NCBI RefSeq assembly: GCF_002259645.1
Contig: NZ_MWWV01000006.1
Coordinates: 124,001-188,000, forward strand
Source: Bifidobacterium tissieri
GTDB lineage: Bacteria > Actinomycetota > Actinomycetes > Actinomycetales > Bifidobacteriaceae
Reading direction: 5' to 3'
Length of the DNA: 64,000 bases
Position 1 is the stretch's first letter. Each line of letters starts with the position of its first letter. A program made the translations under genes and the position numbers. The notes below the pieces were generated by a model. That model worked only from the letters and a program-made list of their open reading frames with translations. It ran no database searches and had not been told where the DNA came from. This document shows, piece by piece, positions 9,270-19,000 of this stretch.

Positions 9270-10610
9270 TCATTTCGTTGTCGACGTCGTGTCGGATATG
9301 GCCTTGCCTGCATGCAGTCCAAAGTCCACGTCGGTTTTCCCTCGGCCCAGTGTGACGGCTTCCGTGAACGCTTGATAATCGGCGAAATCATGGGTCATGC
9401 AGTCCTTGACCAGATGTTTGTTATCGAGAATCACCACGCGATCGGTCACCGACCAGCAGTAGTCGAGGTCATGCGTGATCGTCATGATCGTGCGTCCGTC
9501 GGCCCTGAGTTGCCGCATGAGTTCGATGAGCAGCTGCCGGGTGAGCGGGTCCACGGCGTTGGTGGGCTCGTCGAGCATGATGAGCTTCGGGTCGAACAGC
9601 ATGCCCGTCACGATGCCGGCGCGTTTCTTCAGACCTGAGGAGAGCTCCTTCACCTTCTTGTCCAGATGATCTCCAATCTCGAACGCCTTGACCATCGGCA
9701 GATCCTCCAGATGAGCGAGATCCACGGGATTGGGGTGTTCGCGGGTCGCGTAGAGCATGGTGCGGAATCGGATGTTCTCGCGTACGGTCAGGTCGGCGGT
9801 CAGATTGTTTGAATCGGTGAGCTGGAATACATCGCGCATGGAGGGGAACACGTCGGCGTTGATCACCGCATCGCCGTGTTGCGGACGCAGCAGGCCGAGG
9901 ATCACGCCGAACAGGGTGGTCTTGCCCACGCCGTTATAGCCGAGGATGCCGATCGACTGACCGGCGGGAACATCGAGGCTGATATGGCTGAGCACGGGCT
10001 TGGACTTCTGATATCCGAAGGTCATGTCGCGTACGGATACGGCAATGGGGGAGTGAGCCATGCGATCGGCGGAGGACTGTGTGCCACCTGTCGTGGGCGA
10101 GGACGTCAGAGACTGTGCTGTTGTGGTGGTGGTCATAATGAGTACCTTTCCTTTAAAGAAGATCGACCAGAGAAACAGGATGAGAGCGGCCAGCAGCGGT
10201 TCGACGGTGAGTAGCAGTCCCTGCTCGCCGGCTATGACGGTATGCAGGGACGGCACGAGTGCGCGGAACACCAGTACGATCAGTGCGCCGAGTGTGCCGG
10301 ACGGTACCAATGCCGCAATCATCTGCGCGATCAGATACTGCCGATTCGGGCGTCCGCTTGCCTTGAACGCGGCCAGCGTGCCATTGCCGATGTCGCTGCG
10401 AATAAGCTCCATCGCGCAGGTGGGCACGACCGACATGAGGAATGTGATCAGGGTGGCCTGCAGCATGATGCCGGCGAGTACTACGCCTGGTCGAATGATT
10501 GCAGCGGTCCCGATAAGCAGTACTGACAGCGTTCCAGCAACAATGAGCATGATCAGCAGTCCGGTATTGCGGCGGATCTGCAACAGATCCTTGTAGAGGA
10601 TGGCCTTCAT
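9270..10610 (-). CDS. ABC transporter ATPase with a truncated permease fused in frame at its N-terminus
   Basis: Residues 1-155 (start MKAILYKDLL) look like the first two-thirds of an ABC-2 permease, with about four membrane segments and no stop. From residue 159 a complete ATPase follows: Walker A GYNGVGKT near 224-231, signature ELSSGLKKR, Walker B LIMLDEPTNAVD, and the switch His in ITHDLD. The ATPase also has its own start, ATG at 10136, with AAAGGAAAGG 8 nt upstream. Two products are therefore possible: a 446-aa fusion or a 288-aa ATPase. The partner permease at 8556-9239 is full length (227 aa), so this permease portion has probably lost its last two helices by deletion. Confidence 0.82.
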   Translation of the reverse strand: MKAILYKDLLQIRRNTGLLIMLIVAGTLSVLLIGTAAIIRPGVVLAGIMLQATLITFLMSVVPTCAMELIRSDIGNGTLAAFKASGRPNRQYLIAQMIAALVPSGTLGALIVLVFRALVPSLHTVIAGEQGLLLTVEPLLAALILFLWSIFFKGKVLIMTTTTTAQSLTSSPTTGGTQSSADRMAHSPIAVSVRDMTFGYQKSKPVLSHISLDVPAGQSIGILGYNGVGKTTLFGVILGLLRPQHGDAVINADVFPSMRDVFQLTDSNNLTADLTVRENIRFRTMLYATREHPNPVDLAHLEDLPMVKAFEIGDHLDKKVKELSSGLKKRAGIVTGMLFDPKLIMLDEPTNAVDPLTRQLLIELMRQLRADGRTIMTITHDLDYCWSVTDRVVILDNKHLVKDCMTHDFADYQAFTEAVTLGRGKTDVDFGLHAGKAISDTTSTTK

Positions 10611-10735
10611 ATGGTCCTCGATTCGTTGGCTGGGGGACACCTGGGTGGTGGATCGATTGGATTTTGGGTAGGCTCGCGCCGACCCTGTGATATATGGGAT
10701 GACTACGGGATGAATACTGCGGAGCCGATTGCCGG

Positions 10736-11056
10736 TTATCCGCCGGCGACGATCTGCTTCAGAGCGGCGACATGGCTTTGAAATGCGGCTTGTCCGGCGT
10801 CGGTGAACGACACCCATGTCACTTTGTATCCTCGGCCGCTGTTGCGTTCCGCTTTTTTGCTCAACGTTACGTATCCATGGTCGGCAAGTGTTTTGAGATG
10901 CTTGGAGCAGACGGCGTCACTCACGCCGAGGGAGTCGCGCAGCGCATCGAACCTGAGCTTGCCGTAAACCTCGAGCATGCCGCAGATCCGCAGACGGATC
11001 GGCGCGTGAATCGTTTCGTCGAATTTCGGCTCGACCAAAGGGGAACTATCGTTCAT
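10736..11056 (-). CDS. winged-helix transcriptional regulator
   Basis: This is a 106-residue single-domain DNA-binding protein. The stretch from about 17 to 75 (IRLRICGMLEVYGKLRF, then DSLGVSDAVCSKHLKTLADHGYV) is a MarR/ArsR-like winged helix, of the short type often annotated as a winged-helix DNA-binding domain. A basic wing (KKAERNSGRGYK) follows. The start overlaps the end of the upstream membrane-protein gene by 11 bp, so the two are co-translated. It likely controls the transporter genes downstream and binds the paired palindromes at 11714-11754 ahead of the operon. The signal is unknown. Confidence 0.83.
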   Translation of the reverse strand: MNDSSPLVEPKFDETIHAPIRLRICGMLEVYGKLRFDALRDSLGVSDAVCSKHLKTLADHGYVTLSKKAERNSGRGYKVTWVSFTDAGQAAFQSHVAALKQIVAGG

Positions 11057-11678
11057 TTGTCTCGGTTTCCTGGAATACCGGGAGTTTGCTTATCCTGGCA
11101 TATTCGCGGATGTACCATCGCCCCAATGCATGGATTGCCAATGCGCAGAGGACGGCGAGCACGATCGCGCCCACCCATTGTCCGTTGAAGAATCCCCATG
11201 CAAATCCTGCCCATGGCAGCAGAAGCTGCGAGGCCATGGCCGCCGTCCAGGCGATGGCGAAGCGATGATCACGGAACGCCGTTCGCCCGTGTGGTGCCAT
11301 GGTGAATAGGGAGATGCCGGTGGTCTTCTGATACCGGGCCATGATGACGATTGCGGCGATTATGATCAATGCGAGCGTCGTCATGATCACGATGTAGGAA
11401 ACGTCCGAATAGAAATGTCCGCCGAACATCAGACCGATACCCCAATAGACAAAGACCATGAGTGCGAAGATCGGCGTACTGCGCATATTGATCGTCTGCA
11501 ATCCTTGCTCTGAACGTTCCGCCAGGCGTTCCCGATCCGTATCCAACGTCTTCAACGTTTGCAGGCTGTCCAATGCATTCAGGGCCTCATGGGCGTCGGC
11601 CGTGGGTTCGGTAGACTGACTTGCCGCCGTCGTGGTGGATACGGCGTCATCATGCGCCGTGCTGGATTCCTTGGTCAT
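11046..11678 (-). CDS. hypothetical membrane protein, operon partner of the winged-helix regulator
   Basis: This 210-residue protein has a hydrophilic, Thr/Ala-rich N-terminal third (to about 70) followed by two closely spaced hydrophobic pairs (about 76-115 and 148-190). MTKESS is chosen as start because GGGAGG lies 6 nt upstream. A longer frame from 11738 would run through the operator palindromes. It is the first gene of the minus-strand ABC operon and overlaps the regulator. Small two-to-four-helix proteins beside such regulators may sense or sequester them, but nothing in this sequence proves that. Confidence 0.7.
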   Translation of the reverse strand: MTKESSTAHDDAVSTTTAASQSTEPTADAHEALNALDSLQTLKTLDTDRERLAERSEQGLQTINMRSTPIFALMVFVYWGIGLMFGGHFYSDVSYIVIMTTLALIIIAAIVIMARYQKTTGISLFTMAPHGRTAFRDHRFAIAWTAAMASQLLLPWAGFAWGFFNGQWVGAIVLAVLCALAIHALGRWYIREYARISKLPVFQETETNER

Positions 11679-11713
11679 CGCTTCCTCCCAACGATGATGG
11701 TTGCGGAAAATCT

Positions 11714-11754
11714 CTTTCCGTTGTGGAAAGAATATCACTTTCCGTTATGGAAAG
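11714..11754. promoter_or_regulatory. tandem palindromic operators CTTTCC-N5-GGAAAG
   Basis: Two 17-bp palindromes, at 11714-11730 and 11738-11754, share CTTTCC and GGAAAG arms with 5-nt centres GTTGT and GTTAT. Their starts are 24 bp apart. A third, weaker GGAAA/TTTCC pair overlaps the first at 11705-11719. They lie between the divergent membrane-protein/regulator operon and the dehydrogenase gene, about 35 bp upstream of the former's start. The likely ligand is the winged-helix protein encoded at 10736-11056. Confidence 0.7.
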
Positions 11755-11868
11755 AATTATGCGTGTCGCGCTCGCTAAGATGGCAGACGAATCTCGCCCG
11801 ACGCGGTCCAATAGGCAGGGTGACCGTGCGGTTCGGGCGTCAATGATGTCAGTCAAGGAGAAATGAAC

Positions 11869-12852
11869 ATGAAGATAGCCGCCTTCGAGGTGCGCGACGA
11901 CGAGCGTGGATCGTTCGCCGATGAAGCAAACCGGGTCGGTGTGGCCGTTGAGCTGCATAGCGAATGCCTCGGTCCCGACAAAATCGGTCTGGTTGCCGGT
12001 TGCGACGGCGTCAGCACTCTCGGCCAGAGCCATATCGACGCCGCCATGATCGACGCGCTCGCCGATGCCGGGGTCAAGGTGGTGGCCACCCGCACGATCG
12101 GGTACAACCACATCGATCTCAATGCGGCCAGACGGCGTGGCGTCATGGTGCTCAACGCCGACTATGCGCCGAACGGTGTGGCCGAGTACACGGTGATGTT
12201 CATCCTGCTCGTGTTGCGCAACTACAAGCCGGCGCTGTGGCGCGGTCAGGTCTACGACTTCTCGCTTGGGGGATTGCAGGGGCGCGAACTGCGCAATCTC
12301 ACCGTCGGCGTGATGGGCACCGGCCGCATCGGCGCGACGGTGATCCAATGCCTGACCGGATTCGGCTGCCGCATTCTCGCCCATGACCCGCATCCGAAGG
12401 CCGCCGTCGCGGAGCACGCCGAATACGTTGATCTGGAGACCCTGTACGCGCAGAGCGATGTGATCACGCTGCACATGCCGCTGCTCGATTCCACGTTCCA
12501 TATCATCAACCGCGAGACGATCTCCCGGATGAAGGACGGCGTGGTGCTGATCAACTGCGCACGTGGCGAGCTCATGGATCTTGACGCGCTGATCGACAAC
12601 ATCGAGGCCAAGAAGATCGGCGGACTCGGCCTTGACACCGTGGAGACCGAGGGCGAGCTGATCCATCGCGATCGCCGTACCGACATCCTCACCAACCGAG
12701 GCATCGCCTACCTGCGTCAGTTCCCGAACGTGGTGATGACGCAGCATATGGCGTTCTACACCGACGCCGCCGTGCGCAGCATGGTCTCCTGTTCCGTCGA
12801 TGGCATCCGCGCCGTACTGGAGACCGGAGAATTCCGTACCCGTATTGCGTAG
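11869..12852 (+). CDS. D-isomer-specific 2-hydroxyacid dehydrogenase (D-lactate dehydrogenase-like)
   Basis: About 327 residues, NAD-dependent, cytoplasmic. The Rossmann motif is VMGTGRIG, near residues 147-154. The catalytic set is recognisable: Arg in NCARGELMD, a Glu in TVETEGE, and His in MTQHMAFYTD. The overall form resembles D-lactate dehydrogenase and VanH rather than phosphoglycerate dehydrogenase. AAGGAG lies 8 nt before the ATG at 11869, whereas the ATG at 11863 would be only 2 nt away. It is transcribed alone, away from the ABC operon. It should reduce a 2-keto acid such as pyruvate or an aromatic keto acid. Substrate is not readable from sequence. Confidence 0.87.
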   Translation: MKIAAFEVRDDERGSFADEANRVGVAVELHSECLGPDKIGLVAGCDGVSTLGQSHIDAAMIDALADAGVKVVATRTIGYNHIDLNAARRRGVMVLNADYAPNGVAEYTVMFILLVLRNYKPALWRGQVYDFSLGGLQGRELRNLTVGVMGTGRIGATVIQCLTGFGCRILAHDPHPKAAVAEHAEYVDLETLYAQSDVITLHMPLLDSTFHIINRETISRMKDGVVLINCARGELMDLDALIDNIEAKKIGGLGLDTVETEGELIHRDRRTDILTNRGIAYLRQFPNVVMTQHMAFYTDAAVRSMVSCSVDGIRAVLETGEFRTRIA

Positions 12853-12966
12853 CGTGTGTGATGTGCGACGCGCGACGCGCGACGAATGACGCGTGGTGAG
12901 ATGCGATCCCTTCCTGCATGATCTGCGGGGAGGGATCGTTCGTAGGGGAGGAGTGGATGGTCTGCT

Positions 12967-13039
12967 CAACTGTTATGTCTCTGAGTTGAACAGTTGTCAT
13001 AACTGTGATACTGTTATACACAACAGTTACACAGTGTAA
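12967..13039 (+). promoter_or_regulatory. promoter with multiple palindromes upstream of the GntR gene
   Basis: Four related inverted repeats crowd 73 bp: CAACTGTT/AACAGTTG (12967-12974 with 12989-12996), a 19-bp near-palindrome ATAAC...GTTAT (12999-13017), TAACTGT/ACAGTTA (13000-13006 with 13023-13029), and TTACACAGTGTAA (13027-13039). A TTGTCA (12994-12999) and TATACA (13015-13020) spaced 15 bp could be -35 and -10. The last palindrome ends 21 bp before the GntR ATG. Autoregulation by the GntR protein is likely. Confidence 0.6.
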
Positions 13040-13059
13040 TGGTACAGAAAGGGGTATCG

Positions 13060-13449
13060 ATGAAGCTGATCATCTCATCGGTGTCTGGAGAACCCATCTA
13101 CGAGCAAATCAAACGACAGATTCGCGATGCGGTGCTCAACGGCGAACTCAAACCCGGTGAAGCACTGCCGTCCCTGCGAAAGCTGGCCAAGGAACTGCGC
13201 GTATCCGTACTCACCGTCACCAGAGCGTATGGCGAACTGGCCGATGAGGGTGTGGTGCGTAATATCCAGGGCAAGGGCAGCTTTGTCATGGACCGCGGCA
13301 ACGAGGTCATGCGGGAAGCCTTGGAAACGCAAATCAAGGCCAATCTCGCCGAGGTCTGCACCGCGGCGCATGCGGCGGGAATGCCGGTCGCTGATCTGCA
13401 CGATCTGCTCGATGATGTGTACGACGACATCATTAAGGAGCAATCATGA
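13060..13449 (+). CDS. GntR-family regulator, YtrA subfamily
   Basis: This 129-residue protein has a GntR winged helix at about 10-72 (GEPIYEQIKRQIRDAVLNG, PSLRKLAKELRVSVLTVTRAYGEL, NIQGKGSFV) and a short C-terminal helical tail (about 80-129) with no ligand domain, as in YtrA types that control ABC transporter genes. AAAGGGG precedes the ATG at 13060, and an in-frame start at 13039 would use no clear site. Its end overlaps the next gene by 4 bp (ATGA). The gene it should control is the chimeric ABC gene that follows. Confidence 0.88.
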   Translation: MKLIISSVSGEPIYEQIKRQIRDAVLNGELKPGEALPSLRKLAKELRVSVLTVTRAYGELADEGVVRNIQGKGSFVMDRGNEVMREALETQIKANLAEVCTAAHAAGMPVADLHDLLDDVYDDIIKEQS

Positions 13450-14165
13450 CCGACCGTTCCCTCGACTCCGGTCCAATGGCGCTGTCCGTAACCGGAGCGG
13501 CTAAACACTACGCCTCGGGTTTCACCCTGAACGACGTCACCTTCGATCTGCCTGCGGGGTATGTCATGGGACTGATCGGCCCCAATGGAGCCGGTAAATC
13601 CACGCTCATCAAACTCATCCTCAACATGATCCGCCGCGATGCCGGAACCATCGAGTCGTTTGGACGGGACTCCGTCCGGGACGAGGAGGCGTTCAAGGCC
13701 GATCTCGGTGTGGTCTTCGATTCGTCGTTCCTGCTGGTCAACATGGCCATCATCATCTTCGATATGGTGATCAGCGGGGTGATCATGGCGCTGTTCGGCA
13801 CGGGAATCACCGTATTCGAGGTGGTCTTCGCCATGCTGTTCTCGATGCTGATCTTCGCGCTGCTTTCCTCGGTGCTGGTTCCGGTGCTTTACCGGTTCGG
13901 ATTCGGCAAGGGGATCCGTGTGCTCATGATCGGTGCGTTCGCGGTGTGCCTTGTTTTCGGAGTGCTGATGGGGCTTGCGGCCTCGTCACCGGATCTGCGA
14001 CGCTGGCTCAACGGTCTTTTCGAGATCGTCGCGGGGATGGTCCGTGCGATCGCCGACTCTCCCTTCCCCGGTCTTGACGCGTTGATCGCGGTGGCGGTGT
14101 GCGCCGCGTCGATCGCCATCTCTCATCGAGTATCCCGACGGATCTGGAACGGTCATGAGATGTGA
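13446..14165 (+). pseudogene. chimeric ABC gene: ATPase front joined in frame to permease back half
   Basis: Residues 1-95 are an ABC ATPase beginning: beta-strand start, Walker A GPNGAGKST near 46-54, then text up to DLGVVFDSSF. There the ATPase stops and ABC-2 permease sequence starts (LVNMAIIIFDMVISGV), with four or five membrane helices to the end at 239. The ATPase lacks its Q-loop, signature motif, Walker B and switch His. The permease lacks its first half. The frame and ribosome coupling to the GntR gene are intact. An internal deletion across two adjacent genes explains this best. A product could be made but should not hydrolyse ATP as a normal transporter. Confidence 0.8.
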
Positions 14166-14231
14166 TCGAAGATCCCGGCTTCTCCATCGTATAATGATCG
14201 TAATTGTGTAATTCTTCCGAAGGGACTTACG

Positions 14232-14711
14232 ATGTTCAACGGCATACCGCTCGCCATGCGGGTGGAGTATGCCGTTGTTCTTGTTCCCATGCTGGTGCTG
14301 CTGATTCCGGTGGCCGCGTCGATGATCGTGCGATCCCGGCTCGAAGGCTCGCTGCTGCGCGTGCGCAGTCGCGGAATGGTGGCCGTAGGGGCGGCATCCT
14401 GTGCTTCCATGTTGGGTCTTGTGGCGGCCGCGCTGATACTTGGCATGCCGGATATAGCCGTTATGCCGACTACTTCCAATATGGCGATGTGCTACGGGGC
14501 GGCAGTGGCGTTCTGTGCGCTTATGGTCGTGGCATTGCCGGCCTTCGCGGCGGCCGTTCCCGCAACGGTGGGTGCGCTGCTGCACCGTCTTGCCGGTCTT
14601 CCCGCCGTATTGCACTGTGACCGGCATGTGGCGGATTCGTCACGATCGTGGTCCCGCCAGCAATGGGTGCCGCGTTGGGCCCGCTTCTCGCTTCCTGATG
14701 TTCGAATCTGA
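14232..14711 (+). CDS. hypothetical small membrane protein
   Basis: The 159-residue product has three or four hydrophobic segments (about 13-33, 50-75, 82-110) and a hydrophilic, Trp/Arg-rich tail (130-159). GAAGGGA lies 6 nt before the ATG. An upstream AT-rich stretch (TATAATGATCG near 14190) could contain a -10 box. I do not recognise the family. The Arg/Trp-rich tail might mark a frameshifted or weakly constrained end. It lies between the chimeric ABC gene and the YidC paralog. Confidence 0.55.
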   Translation: MFNGIPLAMRVEYAVVLVPMLVLLIPVAASMIVRSRLEGSLLRVRSRGMVAVGAASCASMLGLVAAALILGMPDIAVMPTTSNMAMCYGAAVAFCALMVVALPAFAAAVPATVGALLHRLAGLPAVLHCDRHVADSSRSWSRQQWVPRWARFSLPDVRI

Positions 14712-14827
14712 ACGGTTTTCGTTCGCATATTGCGTCGTTCCAATATTCGCCGTTTCGTATTCGTCGGAGCGAATCCATCCACACTGCTATGAGTGCCATC
14801 ATGACGCATATTCATGATGCACATGAC

Positions 14828-14842
14828 TGTTTCACGTGAACA
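14828..14842. promoter_or_regulatory. parS-like palindrome, one base short
   Basis: TGTTTCACGTGAACA differs from the widely conserved ParB-binding parS 16-mer only by one missing A in the right arm. A partial copy, GTGTTTCACG, follows 25 bp further on. It lies in the intergenic stretch before the yidC paralog. Whether ParB binds a site with this deletion is doubtful. Confidence 0.3.
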
Positions 14843-14894
14843 ATATTCATGACAGTGTTTCACGATGGATTCGCCATATCATCAGGAAGTCATC

Positions 14895-15872
14895 ATGTCC
14901 ATCGTCAATACCATGCTTCAGCCCCTGGAATGGCTGATCGCACAACTACTCATTCTCGGCCACCGAATGCTCACCGCCATTGGCATGCCCGACGGTGCGG
15001 GCCTCGCCTGGTGCCTTGCCATCATGGGACTGGTCCTTGTCATCCGCATCTGTCTGCTGCCGTTGTTTGTGCGGCAGATACAGTCCATGCGACGTATGCA
15101 GGCCATCCAGCCGCAGCTCCAGCGCATTCAGCGCAAATATGCCGGGCGCAAGGATCCGCGCTCGCAGGAGGCGCTGCAACGCGAAACCATGGCGCTCTAT
15201 CGCCGGGAGGGCGCGAATCCCATGGGATCGTGTCTGCCGGCGCTTGTGCAGATGCCGGTGCTGTGCTCGTTGTTCTCCATGCTGCAACGACTGCCGATGA
15301 TCGCCGACGGGACATCGACTGCGATCGGCGGTATCGACCGCTCGGTCGCCGGCGATATCGAAGCGTCGCGATTCCTTGGCGTTCGTGTCGCCGATACGTT
15401 CATGTCCGCCGACGGGGTTTCGGAACGATTGGCCATCGGCGCGATTGTCGCGGTGATGTGTGCGGCGCTGGTCATCATGCAATGGCTGCTGACCCATCGC
15501 AATACATCCCGTACGATCATGGAGTCGCCACAGTTCCGTATGCAGCAAACGATGGTGTTCGTATTTCCCGTGATTTATATCTTCTCCGGAGTGACGTTGC
15601 CGTTCGGCGTACTGCTGTATTGGGTCACCAACAATCTATGGAATCTCATGCAGACCGTTGCACAACTGCGCTGGTTCCCGAATCCCGGATCGGTCGCCGA
15701 TGAACGGAAGTCCGTACGTGACCACGCGCGGGAGAACCGGCGTCGCCGTGCCGCCGGCATGCCGTCACTTGAGGAGGAAGCCGTCGAGGCGGCGCGAAGG
15801 TCGGCAAACGATCGTCGCGCCCGTGAATCGCGGGCCAGACGACACCGGTCGACTGTCGTCACCTCCGACTGA
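14895..15872 (+). CDS. YidC/Oxa1-family membrane protein insertase (likely second paralog)
   Basis: Oxa1-type insertases help membrane proteins fold into the cytoplasmic membrane. The 325-residue protein has a first helix near 10-30, then LAWCLAIMGLVLVIRICLLP (about 40-60), the amphipathic QIQSMRRMQAIQPQLQRIQRKY region, NPMGSCLPALVQMPVLCSLF near 110-130, and paired C-terminal helices with TLPFGVLLYWVTNNLWNLMQ. A long Arg-rich cytoplasmic tail (about 255-325) may touch ribosomes. There is no rpmH or rnpA beside it, so it is probably not the main yidC near oriC. AGGAAG precedes the ATG at 14895. Confidence 0.88.
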   Translation: MSIVNTMLQPLEWLIAQLLILGHRMLTAIGMPDGAGLAWCLAIMGLVLVIRICLLPLFVRQIQSMRRMQAIQPQLQRIQRKYAGRKDPRSQEALQRETMALYRREGANPMGSCLPALVQMPVLCSLFSMLQRLPMIADGTSTAIGGIDRSVAGDIEASRFLGVRVADTFMSADGVSERLAIGAIVAVMCAALVIMQWLLTHRNTSRTIMESPQFRMQQTMVFVFPVIYIFSGVTLPFGVLLYWVTNNLWNLMQTVAQLRWFPNPGSVADERKSVRDHARENRRRRAAGMPSLEEEAVEAARRSANDRRARESRARRHRSTVVTSD

Positions 15873-15910
15873 CCTCCGATCTGGCCGCATGTCCCTCTCA
15901 TGAAATACGA

Positions 15911-15961
15911 ATACGGCACTGGTCAAGGTGATGCTTACGCAACTCCTGATCGGTGCCGTAT
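15911..15961. terminator. inverted repeat between convergent yidC paralog and thrC
   Basis: ATACGGCAC (15911-15919) and GTGCCGTAT (15953-15961) form a perfect 9-bp inverted repeat with a 33-nt spacer between the ends of two converging genes. It may be a two-way terminator, but the long loop and absent T-run make this weak. Confidence 0.35.
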
Positions 15962-16011
15962 CGATGAATCCTCCTCATGCAATATGCGAAGAAGGAACTT
16001 GGGTGCGTGCC

Positions 16012-17502
16012 TTACTTCTCGGCGGCGGAACGGACGTAGTCCTCCATCGCGTCGATCTCCACCACGTCATCGAATCGCACGTCCGCGGTCTCCAATCCGC
16101 GCAGCGCGGCGGGGGCCGTGGTGCCGGTGGCCTTGGACAGCACATCCATGCACTCGAAATCGGTGCCGGTGGCGTCGAGGCCAAGGGACTCATTGACCAC
16201 GCGCGGGAACTTGTACGGGCTGGCGGTGCTCAGCAGCACGCGCGGCGTGAGCGGATCGCGCGGGATCTGCTGCATCACGAAGTAGCCGCAGGCGGTATGC
16301 GGATCGATCACGTAGTGGTTCTTCTCCCAGCAGTCGTGAATCGACTCGCGTACCTGATCCTCGTCGGCCCAGCCGCATCCGAACAGGGAACGGATCTTGG
16401 CCAGCATCTCCTCGGGCACCTCATAGGCACCCCACTGGTTCAGATCGTTCATGAGCATGGAGATCAGACGGGTGTCCTTGTCGGAGAAGTAGTAGAGCAT
16501 GCGCTCCAGATTCGACGAGATGAGGATATCCATCGAGGGGGAGATGGTCTGGAAGAACGGGCGCTGACGGTTGTACGTGCCGGTGGTCAGGAAGTCGAAC
16601 AGCACGTTGTTCTTGTCGCTGGCCACGATCAGATGCTTGACGGGCAGGCCGAGCAGCTTGGCGTAGTAGCCGGCAAGGATGTCGCCGAAGTTGCCGGTGG
16701 GCACGCAGAACTCCACCTCGTCGCCCACGTTGATCACCTGATCCTCGAGCAGCTGAGCGTAGGCGGCGAAGTAGTACACCACCTGCGGCACCAGACGGCC
16801 CACGTTGATCGAATTGGCGGAGGACAGCACGGTGTGCGATTCGCCGGCGAGCTCGGCGGCCAGTTCATGGTCGCCGAAGATGCGCTTGACTGCCGACTGC
16901 GCGTCGTCGAAGTTGCCCTTGACCGCGCACACGTTCACGTTGGAACCGGTCTGCGTGGTCATCTGCAACTGCTGGACCTGACTGACCTTGCCTTCCGGAT
17001 AGAACACGGTGATAGCGGTACCCGGAGCGTCCGCGAAGCCGGCCAGAGCTGCCTTGCCGGTATCGCCGGAGGTGGCCGTGAGGATCATGATCTTCTCGTC
17101 GGCGTCACCGTCGGCCGGGGTGGTGCGGGCCATGAACCGCGGCAGGATCTGCAGCGCCACATCCTTGAACGCGCTCGTTGGGCCGTTGAACAGTTCGAGG
17201 ATGTAGTCGTCGCCGAGCGGCTTGAGCGGCGTGATGGCCGGGTCGGACCACTGGTCGCCGTACGCCGCGCGAATGCAGTCGGACAGCTCCTCCTCGGTGA
17301 AGTCGGGAAGCAGCTTGGCGAGCACGGTCTGGGCGATCTGCTGGTAGCTTTTGCCGGCCAGCGAGGCGATGTCGACGCGCTCGGAGCCCAGCGAGTCGGA
17401 GACGAACAGGCCGCCGTCGTCGGCGATGCCCTTGCGGATGGCCTGCTTGGCGGTGAGCGAATCGGTGGTGCTGCGCGTGCTGTGGAAAGTGGTCACGGTC
17501 AA
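16012..17502 (-). CDS. thrC: threonine synthase
   Basis: ThrC converts O-phosphohomoserine to threonine with PLP. At 496 residues it is of the long, fungal/enteric-like type with an N-terminal extension. The PLP lysine lies in GPTSAFKDVA (Lys113), and TATSGDTGKAAL and PTGNFGDILAGYYAKLLGLP bind the cofactor phosphate and substrate. The frame can start at TTG (17502) or GTG (17496). GAGGG lies 8 nt before the GTG, so the GTG may be used. It stands alone, away from hom and thrB, divergent from glyA. A 556-residue open frame on the opposite strand is a shadow. Confidence 0.93.
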   Translation of the reverse strand: MTVTTFHSTRSTTDSLTAKQAIRKGIADDGGLFVSDSLGSERVDIASLAGKSYQQIAQTVLAKLLPDFTEEELSDCIRAAYGDQWSDPAITPLKPLGDDYILELFNGPTSAFKDVALQILPRFMARTTPADGDADEKIMILTATSGDTGKAALAGFADAPGTAITVFYPEGKVSQVQQLQMTTQTGSNVNVCAVKGNFDDAQSAVKRIFGDHELAAELAGESHTVLSSANSINVGRLVPQVVYYFAAYAQLLEDQVINVGDEVEFCVPTGNFGDILAGYYAKLLGLPVKHLIVASDKNNVLFDFLTTGTYNRQRPFFQTISPSMDILISSNLERMLYYFSDKDTRLISMLMNDLNQWGAYEVPEEMLAKIRSLFGCGWADEDQVRESIHDCWEKNHYVIDPHTACGYFVMQQIPRDPLTPRVLLSTASPYKFPRVVNESLGLDATGTDFECMDVLSKATGTTAPAALRGLETADVRFDDVVEIDAMEDYVRSAAEK

Positions 17503-17689
17503 AACCCTCGGAATCTCCTAGAAAACATTGTGTGGACAGCCGTCAGTCTACCGGTAGCGCTGGGCAAGCGCGGCCGGGCGTCTCACGAACGTTTATGAGA
17601 CAAAACCGTTATGGAGATTGGCACGATGCAAATGCCGCCTTAAACTAAACGGGTCATTCATATCCGTGTGCAACGAAGTGAGGAGCACC

Positions 17690-19000
17690 ATGACGGAACA
17701 GACGTCCTACCCCCAGAAGCCGGGCGACGCGTTCAACGCGCCGATCGCCGAGGCTGATCCCGAGATCGCCGACATCCTGACTGCAGAGCTGCATCGTCAG
17801 CAGGACGGTCTCGAGATGATCGCCTCCGAGAACTTCGTGCCGCGTGCCGTGCTTCAGGCGCAGGGATCCGTACTGACCAACAAGTACGCCGAAGGCTATC
17901 CGGGGCGCCGCTACTACGGCGGCTGCGAACAGGTCGACAAGCTCGAGACCATCGCCCGCAACCGTGCCAAGGAACTGTTCGGCGCCGAATACGCCAACGT
18001 GCAGCCCCACTCCGGAGCCCAGGCCAACGCCGCCGTCTACCAGGCGCTCGTCAAGCCCGGCGACACCGTGCTTGGTCTGGCCCTCGACCACGGCGGCCAT
18101 CTCACCCACGGCATGAAGATCAACTTCTCCGGCCGCTTCTACCACGCCGAAGCCTACGGCGTGAACCCCGAGACCTTCCGCATCGATCCCGAGATCATCC
18201 GCCAGCGCGCACTCGAAACGCCCCCGGCCATGATCATCGGCGGTTGGAGCGCCTACCCCCGCATCGAGGACTTCAAGGCCATGAAGGAGATCGCCGACGA
18301 GGTCGGCGCCAAGTTCTGGGTCGACATGGCCCACTTCGCCGGACTGGTCGCCGCCGGACTGCATCCGAGCCCGGTGCCGTACGCCGACGTGGTGTCCTCC
18401 ACCGCGCACAAGACGCTCGGCGGCCCGCGCTCCGGCTTCATTCTGGCCAAGCAGGAGTACGCCAAGAAGCTCAACTCCGCCGTGTTCCCCGGCCAGCAGG
18501 GCGGCCCGCTCATGCACGTGATCGCCGGCAAGGCCGTGAGCTTCAAGGTGGCCGGTACCCCCGAGTTCAAGGACCGCATGCAGCGCACGCTCGACGATGC
18601 CAAGATCCTCGCCGAGCGTCTGACCGCCGACGACGTGAAGGCCAACGGCATCTCCGTGCTCACCGGCGGCACCGACGTGCATCTGGTGATGGTCGACCTG
18701 CGCAACAGCGAGATGGACGGCCAGCAGGGCGAGGATCTGCTCGCCCAGTGCGGCATCACCATCAACCGCAATACCGTGCCGTTCGATCCGCGTCCGGCGT
18801 CCGTGGCCTCCGGCCTGCGCATCGGCACCAGCGCGCTCGCCACCCGCGGCTTCGGTCCCAAGGAGTACGAGGAGGTGGCCGACATCATCGGCACCGCGCT
18901 CGCAGCCGGCAAGTCCGCCGACGTGGAGTCGCTCAAGGCGCGCGTCGACAGGCTCGTCGAGGACTTCCCGCTCTACCCGGAACTCGATCAGGTGCACTGA
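17690..19000 (+). CDS. glyA: serine hydroxymethyltransferase
   Basis: GlyA interconverts serine and glycine, feeding one-carbon units to tetrahydrofolate. The 436-residue protein has [17 protein letters not shown] near 63-80, SGAQAN, and the PLP-binding lysine in [14 protein letters not shown] (Lys241). The usual run of threonines before His-Lys is partly replaced by Ser and Ala, seen in some actinobacterial forms. GAGGAG precedes the ATG at 17690 by 5 nt. A longer frame from 17618 has no support. It is divergent from thrC, with both in amino acid metabolism. Confidence 0.96.

Follow-up and report, generated by a model that had tools for sequence, protein, structure and literature searches.

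An in-frame ATPase-permease chimera behind a GntR regulator of Bifidobacterium tissieri, the probable scar of a deletion in a transporter operon

Directly behind a gene for a GntR-family regulator, Bifidobacterium tissieri carries an open reading frame that joins the front of an ABC ATPase to the back of an ABC-2 type permease. This chimera is very probably the scar of a deletion in a YtrA/Pmt-type operon of GntR, ATPase and permease genes, the rest of which was joined in frame. In the intact relatives, the two halves belong to separate, neighboring genes, and the stretch between them is missing here. The chimera was first noticed in a sequence-only reading of the 64,000-nucleotide stretch of contig NZ_MWWV01000006.1 (positions 124,001 to 188,000) that we analysed; we refer to this whole stretch as the window and give coordinates in its numbering.

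Architecture of the chimera

The locus comprises the following features:

12986–13036, plus strand: putative promoter/operator block ahead of the GntR gene, in which ACAGTT / AACTGT half-sites recur, recognized by its likeness to relatives
13060–13449, plus strand: intact GntR-family regulator of 129 aa (Pfam GntR, 65.8 bits)
13446–13730, plus strand: ATPase front, residues 1–95 with Walker A (ABC_tran profile positions 1–74 of 137)
13731–14165, plus strand: ABC-2 type permease back, about 143 residues with some four helices, in frame (profile of the relatives' permeases)
16012–17502: thrC, near the chimera

The chimeric frame (13446–14165, plus strand) has 239 codons, and its ATG overlaps the stop codon of the GntR gene as ATGA, so that the open frame, the coupling to GntR and the intact start are all as the sequence-only reading had them. 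Its account of an in-frame chimera, with Walker A in an ATPase front, likewise agrees with Pfam and with the relatives' permease profile. ABC_tran matches residues 28–100 with 55.2 bits, over positions 1–74 of its 137, and Walker A (GPNGAGKST) occupies residues 45–53. This front is 69–78% identical to the ATPases of those Bifidobacterium loci that gave the better matches, and the best NCBIfam match of the ATPase part is PmtA, with 64.4 bits against a cut-off of 350. In the alignment with intact proteins, the break comes after S95 (...VFDSS95, base 13730), inside the interval 13720–13745 in which the junction had been placed, and permease sequence follows.

For the back half, ABC2_membrane_5 aligns with residues 96–233 (profile positions 85–203 of 205) at 16.6 bits, which leaves part of the profile uncovered and falls short of the curated cut-off of 25. 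A profile of the first permeases of 23 relatives aligns with the back half from position 103 to the profile end, at 49.9 bits (40.7 bits with a cleaned set). Hydropathy runs (residues 85–154, 151–184 and 205–230) suggest about four helices, in line with the four or five first proposed. A motif search found neither the signature nor Walker B in the chimera, but as it overlooks many genuine ATPases too, more weight belongs to the alignment with intact relatives, in which the chimera lacks the segments bearing the signature, Walker B and the switch histidine, the very motifs that had been reported missing. We found no description of such a chimera in the titles and abstract beginnings of the literature searched.

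The regulator and its promoter

The regulator appears well preserved, with one of 59 near-invariant positions changed in the window (34 rows, 117 columns). We take it to be of the YtrA type by its features, as it is a short GntR protein (129 aa) that heads an ABC operon whose common promoter carries a conserved site. Compared by eye, the block ahead of the gene is similar in the 24 relatives printed. At up to three mismatches, its core has a single match in the window, where none is expected by chance, and a single match in the whole genome. Additional operator copies were considered as a reason why GntR was kept and discarded, as searches of the own genome with two patterns, again at up to three mismatches, returned only the known site. 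Promoter and terminator scans yielded no more sites than shuffled sequences did.

The closest characterized system is PmtR-PmtABCD of Staphylococcus aureus, reported to be an ABC exporter with a YtrA-subfamily GntR repressor that controls its own promoter (PMC5080381). The two systems share their plan, in which a short GntR gene comes first in an operon whose single promoter serves the ABC ATPase and permease genes as well. PmtR is also the best NCBIfam match of the window's regulator, over its whole length, as PmtA is that of the ATPase part. However, with 112.1 bits against a cut-off of 200 for PmtR and 64.4 against 350 for PmtA, both matches fall far short, which leaves the regulator outside the PmtR equivalog family, and the ATPase and permease of the window are truncated and fused. 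By analogy with PmtR, the regulator may still control its own promoter after the deletion.

The intact operon in related genomes

Our scan of named genomes yielded 60 loci, of which 21 carry the label Bifidobacterium; the records nearest to the window genome are possibly omitted from this set. Twenty of the Bifidobacterium loci (L012–L031, with L028 counted despite its broken GntR) were worked through together with L149, L151 and L153, taken from three genomes that belong to the window's genus; the remaining Bifidobacterium locus, L057, was excluded for its broken ATPase. In all 23, the ATPase is complete and the next frame, at −4 or −1 bases, encodes a permease. The separate full-length genes in relatives that the sequence-only reading had named as support for its claim are thus present, whereas what separates the two joined parts there is missing from the window. 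The intact ATPases measure about 300 aa, followed by one or two permeases of about 230–270 aa. Loci such as L012, L015 and L020 share with the window a homologous GntR, a homologous ATPase front, a similar promoter block and mostly also the vicinity of thrC, which lies within the 12 kb fetched in 19 of the 20 named loci L012–L031, but unlike the window they keep the whole ATPase and permease(s).

Searches of 189 genomes of the family gave the same picture. The ATPase front half was found in 70 genomes (1e-20) and the permease back half in 75 (1e-30). When the two lists were compared place by place, the back half lay directly beside the front half in all 69 other front-half genomes, one of which (G080) has a frame break between them; the window genome alone lacks this neighbor. 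The chimera's own permease part had matches in 13 other genomes at 1e-3, with 23–37% identity. Within its own genome, it matched only itself, and the ATPase part has no close second copy, the next match being 38% identical. The same fusion at the same length, which would have counted against decay if conserved in many species, is absent from all other genomes among the 189. Against a deletion at this place weigh the 23–37% identity of the permease part and the fact that we found the intact form here in no strain or close relative, so the event is deduced rather than observed. Four candidates for further chimeras were rejected: tblastn shows complete ATPases in L027, L107 and L111, and in L037, where the alignment runs past the junction, there is a 285-aa frame with a Walker B motif. 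The alignment of L046 also extends past the junction, and this locus reaches the end of its stretch.

With the chimera in one genome only, and that genome (2.87 Mb) in 38 contigs, the assembler might have skipped the intervening stretch of an operon that is in truth intact. We regard such an error as unlikely, given that positions 11001–18000 contain no N, that the joint lies within a long contig (C35) and that the genes flanking the chimera are neighbors in two other genomes as well. These two, G001 and G008, belong to the window's genus, of which nine genomes were at hand, including the window's own. Three others have the intact operon, on a contig other than that of dh and thrC, and five lack the ATPase front half at the threshold used. 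G001 and G008 are among these five and show the order dh, a spacer of about 230–320 bases, orf3 and yidC, the spacer site corresponding to GntR and the chimera in the window. We no longer consider a link of the chimera to orf3 and yidC, as these two genes adjoin dh in both genomes without GntR or chimera.

Some observations concern other genes of the neighborhood. A 159-aa membrane protein (14232–14711, plus strand) without Pfam or NCBIfam match occurs in 10 of the 189 genomes, the window's included; it precedes a YidC-like gene in G001 and G008 too, where its C-terminal end is best conserved. Elsewhere in the window, a permease and a complete ABC ATPase share one open frame with no stop between them (9270–10817, minus strand). 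Its tblastn matches cross the joint in G007, G004 and the fetched parts of G001 and G008, by which this fusion, unlike the chimera, seems to be a conserved arrangement. Finally, a second short GntR protein lies near thrC in G001, G008 and G061, and behind it comes a membrane protein of about 370–420 aa:

L147, 3633–4097, minus strand: second short GntR
L148, 4675–5139, minus strand: second short GntR
L160, 1158–1823, reverse complement: second short GntR

Extent of the deletion and origin of the permease part

The internal deletion would have removed the ATPase gene from codon 96 to its end together with the first 100 or so codons of the downstream permease, and the remaining ATPase front and permease back would have been joined in frame, we infer by a single event. 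The original proposal, a deletion across the end of an ATPase gene and the start of a permease gene, is supported as to the deletion itself and needs correction as to its extent, since some two thirds of the ATPase gene would be lost along with the first 40% or so of the permease gene. Measured between the FDSS codons and the RYL-like codons, the distance is 887–1034 bases for the first permease (23 relatives) and 1615–1977 bases for the second (the 13 relatives with a second one), so that the deletion would measure about 0.9–1.0 kb or 1.6–2.0 kb, respectively. A deletion that joins two genes keeps the frame in one case out of three, and the open frame of the chimera therefore needs no special cause.

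By profile scores, the first permease is the likelier source, as the back half reaches 40.7 bits with the first-permease profile vs 28.6 with that of the second. For comparison, true second permeases score 31–61 bits with the first-permease profile and 34–206 with their own, and the back halves of true first permeases score 35–132 bits with a profile of the others. This spread also bears on the idea that the permease tail was acquired separately and never belonged to the same operon. The distance of the back half from the permeases seen (23–37% identity) would fit such an origin, as would a tree of GntR and the front half (33 distinct rows) that places the window, with weak support, outside its own genus. 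Yet the order and strand match the intact operon, and the permeases of this operon vary widely among relatives anyway; we thus hold a separate origin to be very improbable.

Constraint and age of the deletion

The remaining ATPase part bears few marks of decay. Against a reference of 34 distinct rows and 85 columns, with duplicates collapsed and L057 excluded, one of 45 near-invariant front-half positions is changed in the window, compared with 14 of 45 in the broken copy L057, partly through alignment gaps. Relative to nine relatives, the front half has a dN of 0.15–0.22 and a dS of 0.8–3.0, which gives a dN/dS of about 0.06–0.23 with synonymous sites near saturation. Compared with several relatives, the window shows a dN about twice as high as these relatives show among themselves, and its end branch in the tree measures 0.27 against a median of 0.035, which leaves room for some relaxed selection on this copy. 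Apparent constraint on GntR, the promoter and the ATPase stub suggests that the deletion may be recent and may have struck a unit that had been working until then; continued use of the chimera is the less likely alternative.

An intact start and promoter and a frame open throughout are also what one would expect of a protein still in use. The chimera might accordingly be a working membrane-tethered P-loop protein, such as an inhibitor or sensor that binds a nucleotide or partner and acts with GntR, and the single change among the 45 positions and the low dN/dS speak for it as well. Most of the measured divergence, however, may predate the deletion, the long end branch and doubled dN allow for relaxed selection, the chimera occurs in one genome of 189, and it has lost the catalytic motifs and half of the permease. 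On balance, a working protein of this kind seems improbable to us.

A deletion scar, by contrast, would not work as a transporter. An ABC ATPase that lacks the signature, Walker B and the switch histidine does not hydrolyze ATP in the usual ABC dimer, and a pathway is hardly to be expected from an ABC-2 permease that has lost its first helices. Because these motifs and helices are missing, the product should be unable to power transport. The operon has probably ceased to encode a functional transporter, and the decaying transporter that was one of the two options in the sequence-only reading fits both the intact neighbors in relatives and the stretch missing from the window. Transcription of the chimera under GntR control probably continues, and the product would then be a useless or short-lived membrane protein.

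Losses and breakages of the operon in other genomes

The GntR-ATPase-permease operon is often lost in relatives. GntR is found in 88 of the 189 genomes (1e-30), that is, in the 70 with the front half and in 18 more, and in the 4.2–4.8 kb fetched from each of these 18 (loci L159–L167 and L171–L179), no intact ATPase follows it. thrC lies in the stretch read in 14 of the 18, and several retain a similar promoter block. In nine, the GntR match has 60% identity or more; the other nine (G022, G029, G035, G049, G071, G091, G122, G123 and G133) fall below this value and may hold another member of the GntR family. In G133, moreover, an ATPase match of 42% identity lies next to a GntR match of 49%; this is a different operon.

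The remnants differ from genome to genome. In G046, the ATPase is broken into pieces that do not share one frame, and internal deletions affect both ATPase and permease in G101, apparently the genome of L057. In G061 (L160), the ATPase start region, 80% identical to L024 over 41 bases, is joined in frame to the last 55 or so permease residues, a joint read by eye; the tail scores 27.6 bits with the first-permease profile. This looks like a second, shorter in-frame joint. It resembles the window in its intact GntR, its ATPase start in frame with a permease tail and its nearby thrC, but with only about 25 ATPase and 55 permease residues and no Walker A, it stems from a different deletion. G117 retains, as read by eye, about 28 residues of the permease tail behind GntR, and in G030, G072 and G133 dh comes after GntR. 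The remaining 11 of the 18 genomes have no ATPase at 1e-4. A converse case, outside the 18, is G107, apparently the genome of L028, with a broken GntR ahead of an intact ATPase.

Conclusions

One part of this picture is worth another look, namely GntR without its transporter and what the regulator may still do there. It could be that GntR has a role beyond the transporter and that the chimera was kept in this species so that its membrane-bound Walker A stub could bind a ligand or partner for GntR. Such a role would account for a GntR without transporter in up to 18 genomes, but we give this reading only a slim chance. As a deletion scar, the chimera is ordinary in kind, a broken transporter of a sort that related species have lost or broken in other ways. 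It serves as a worked case of how an intact-looking open reading frame with domain matches at both ends can be the scar of a deletion.
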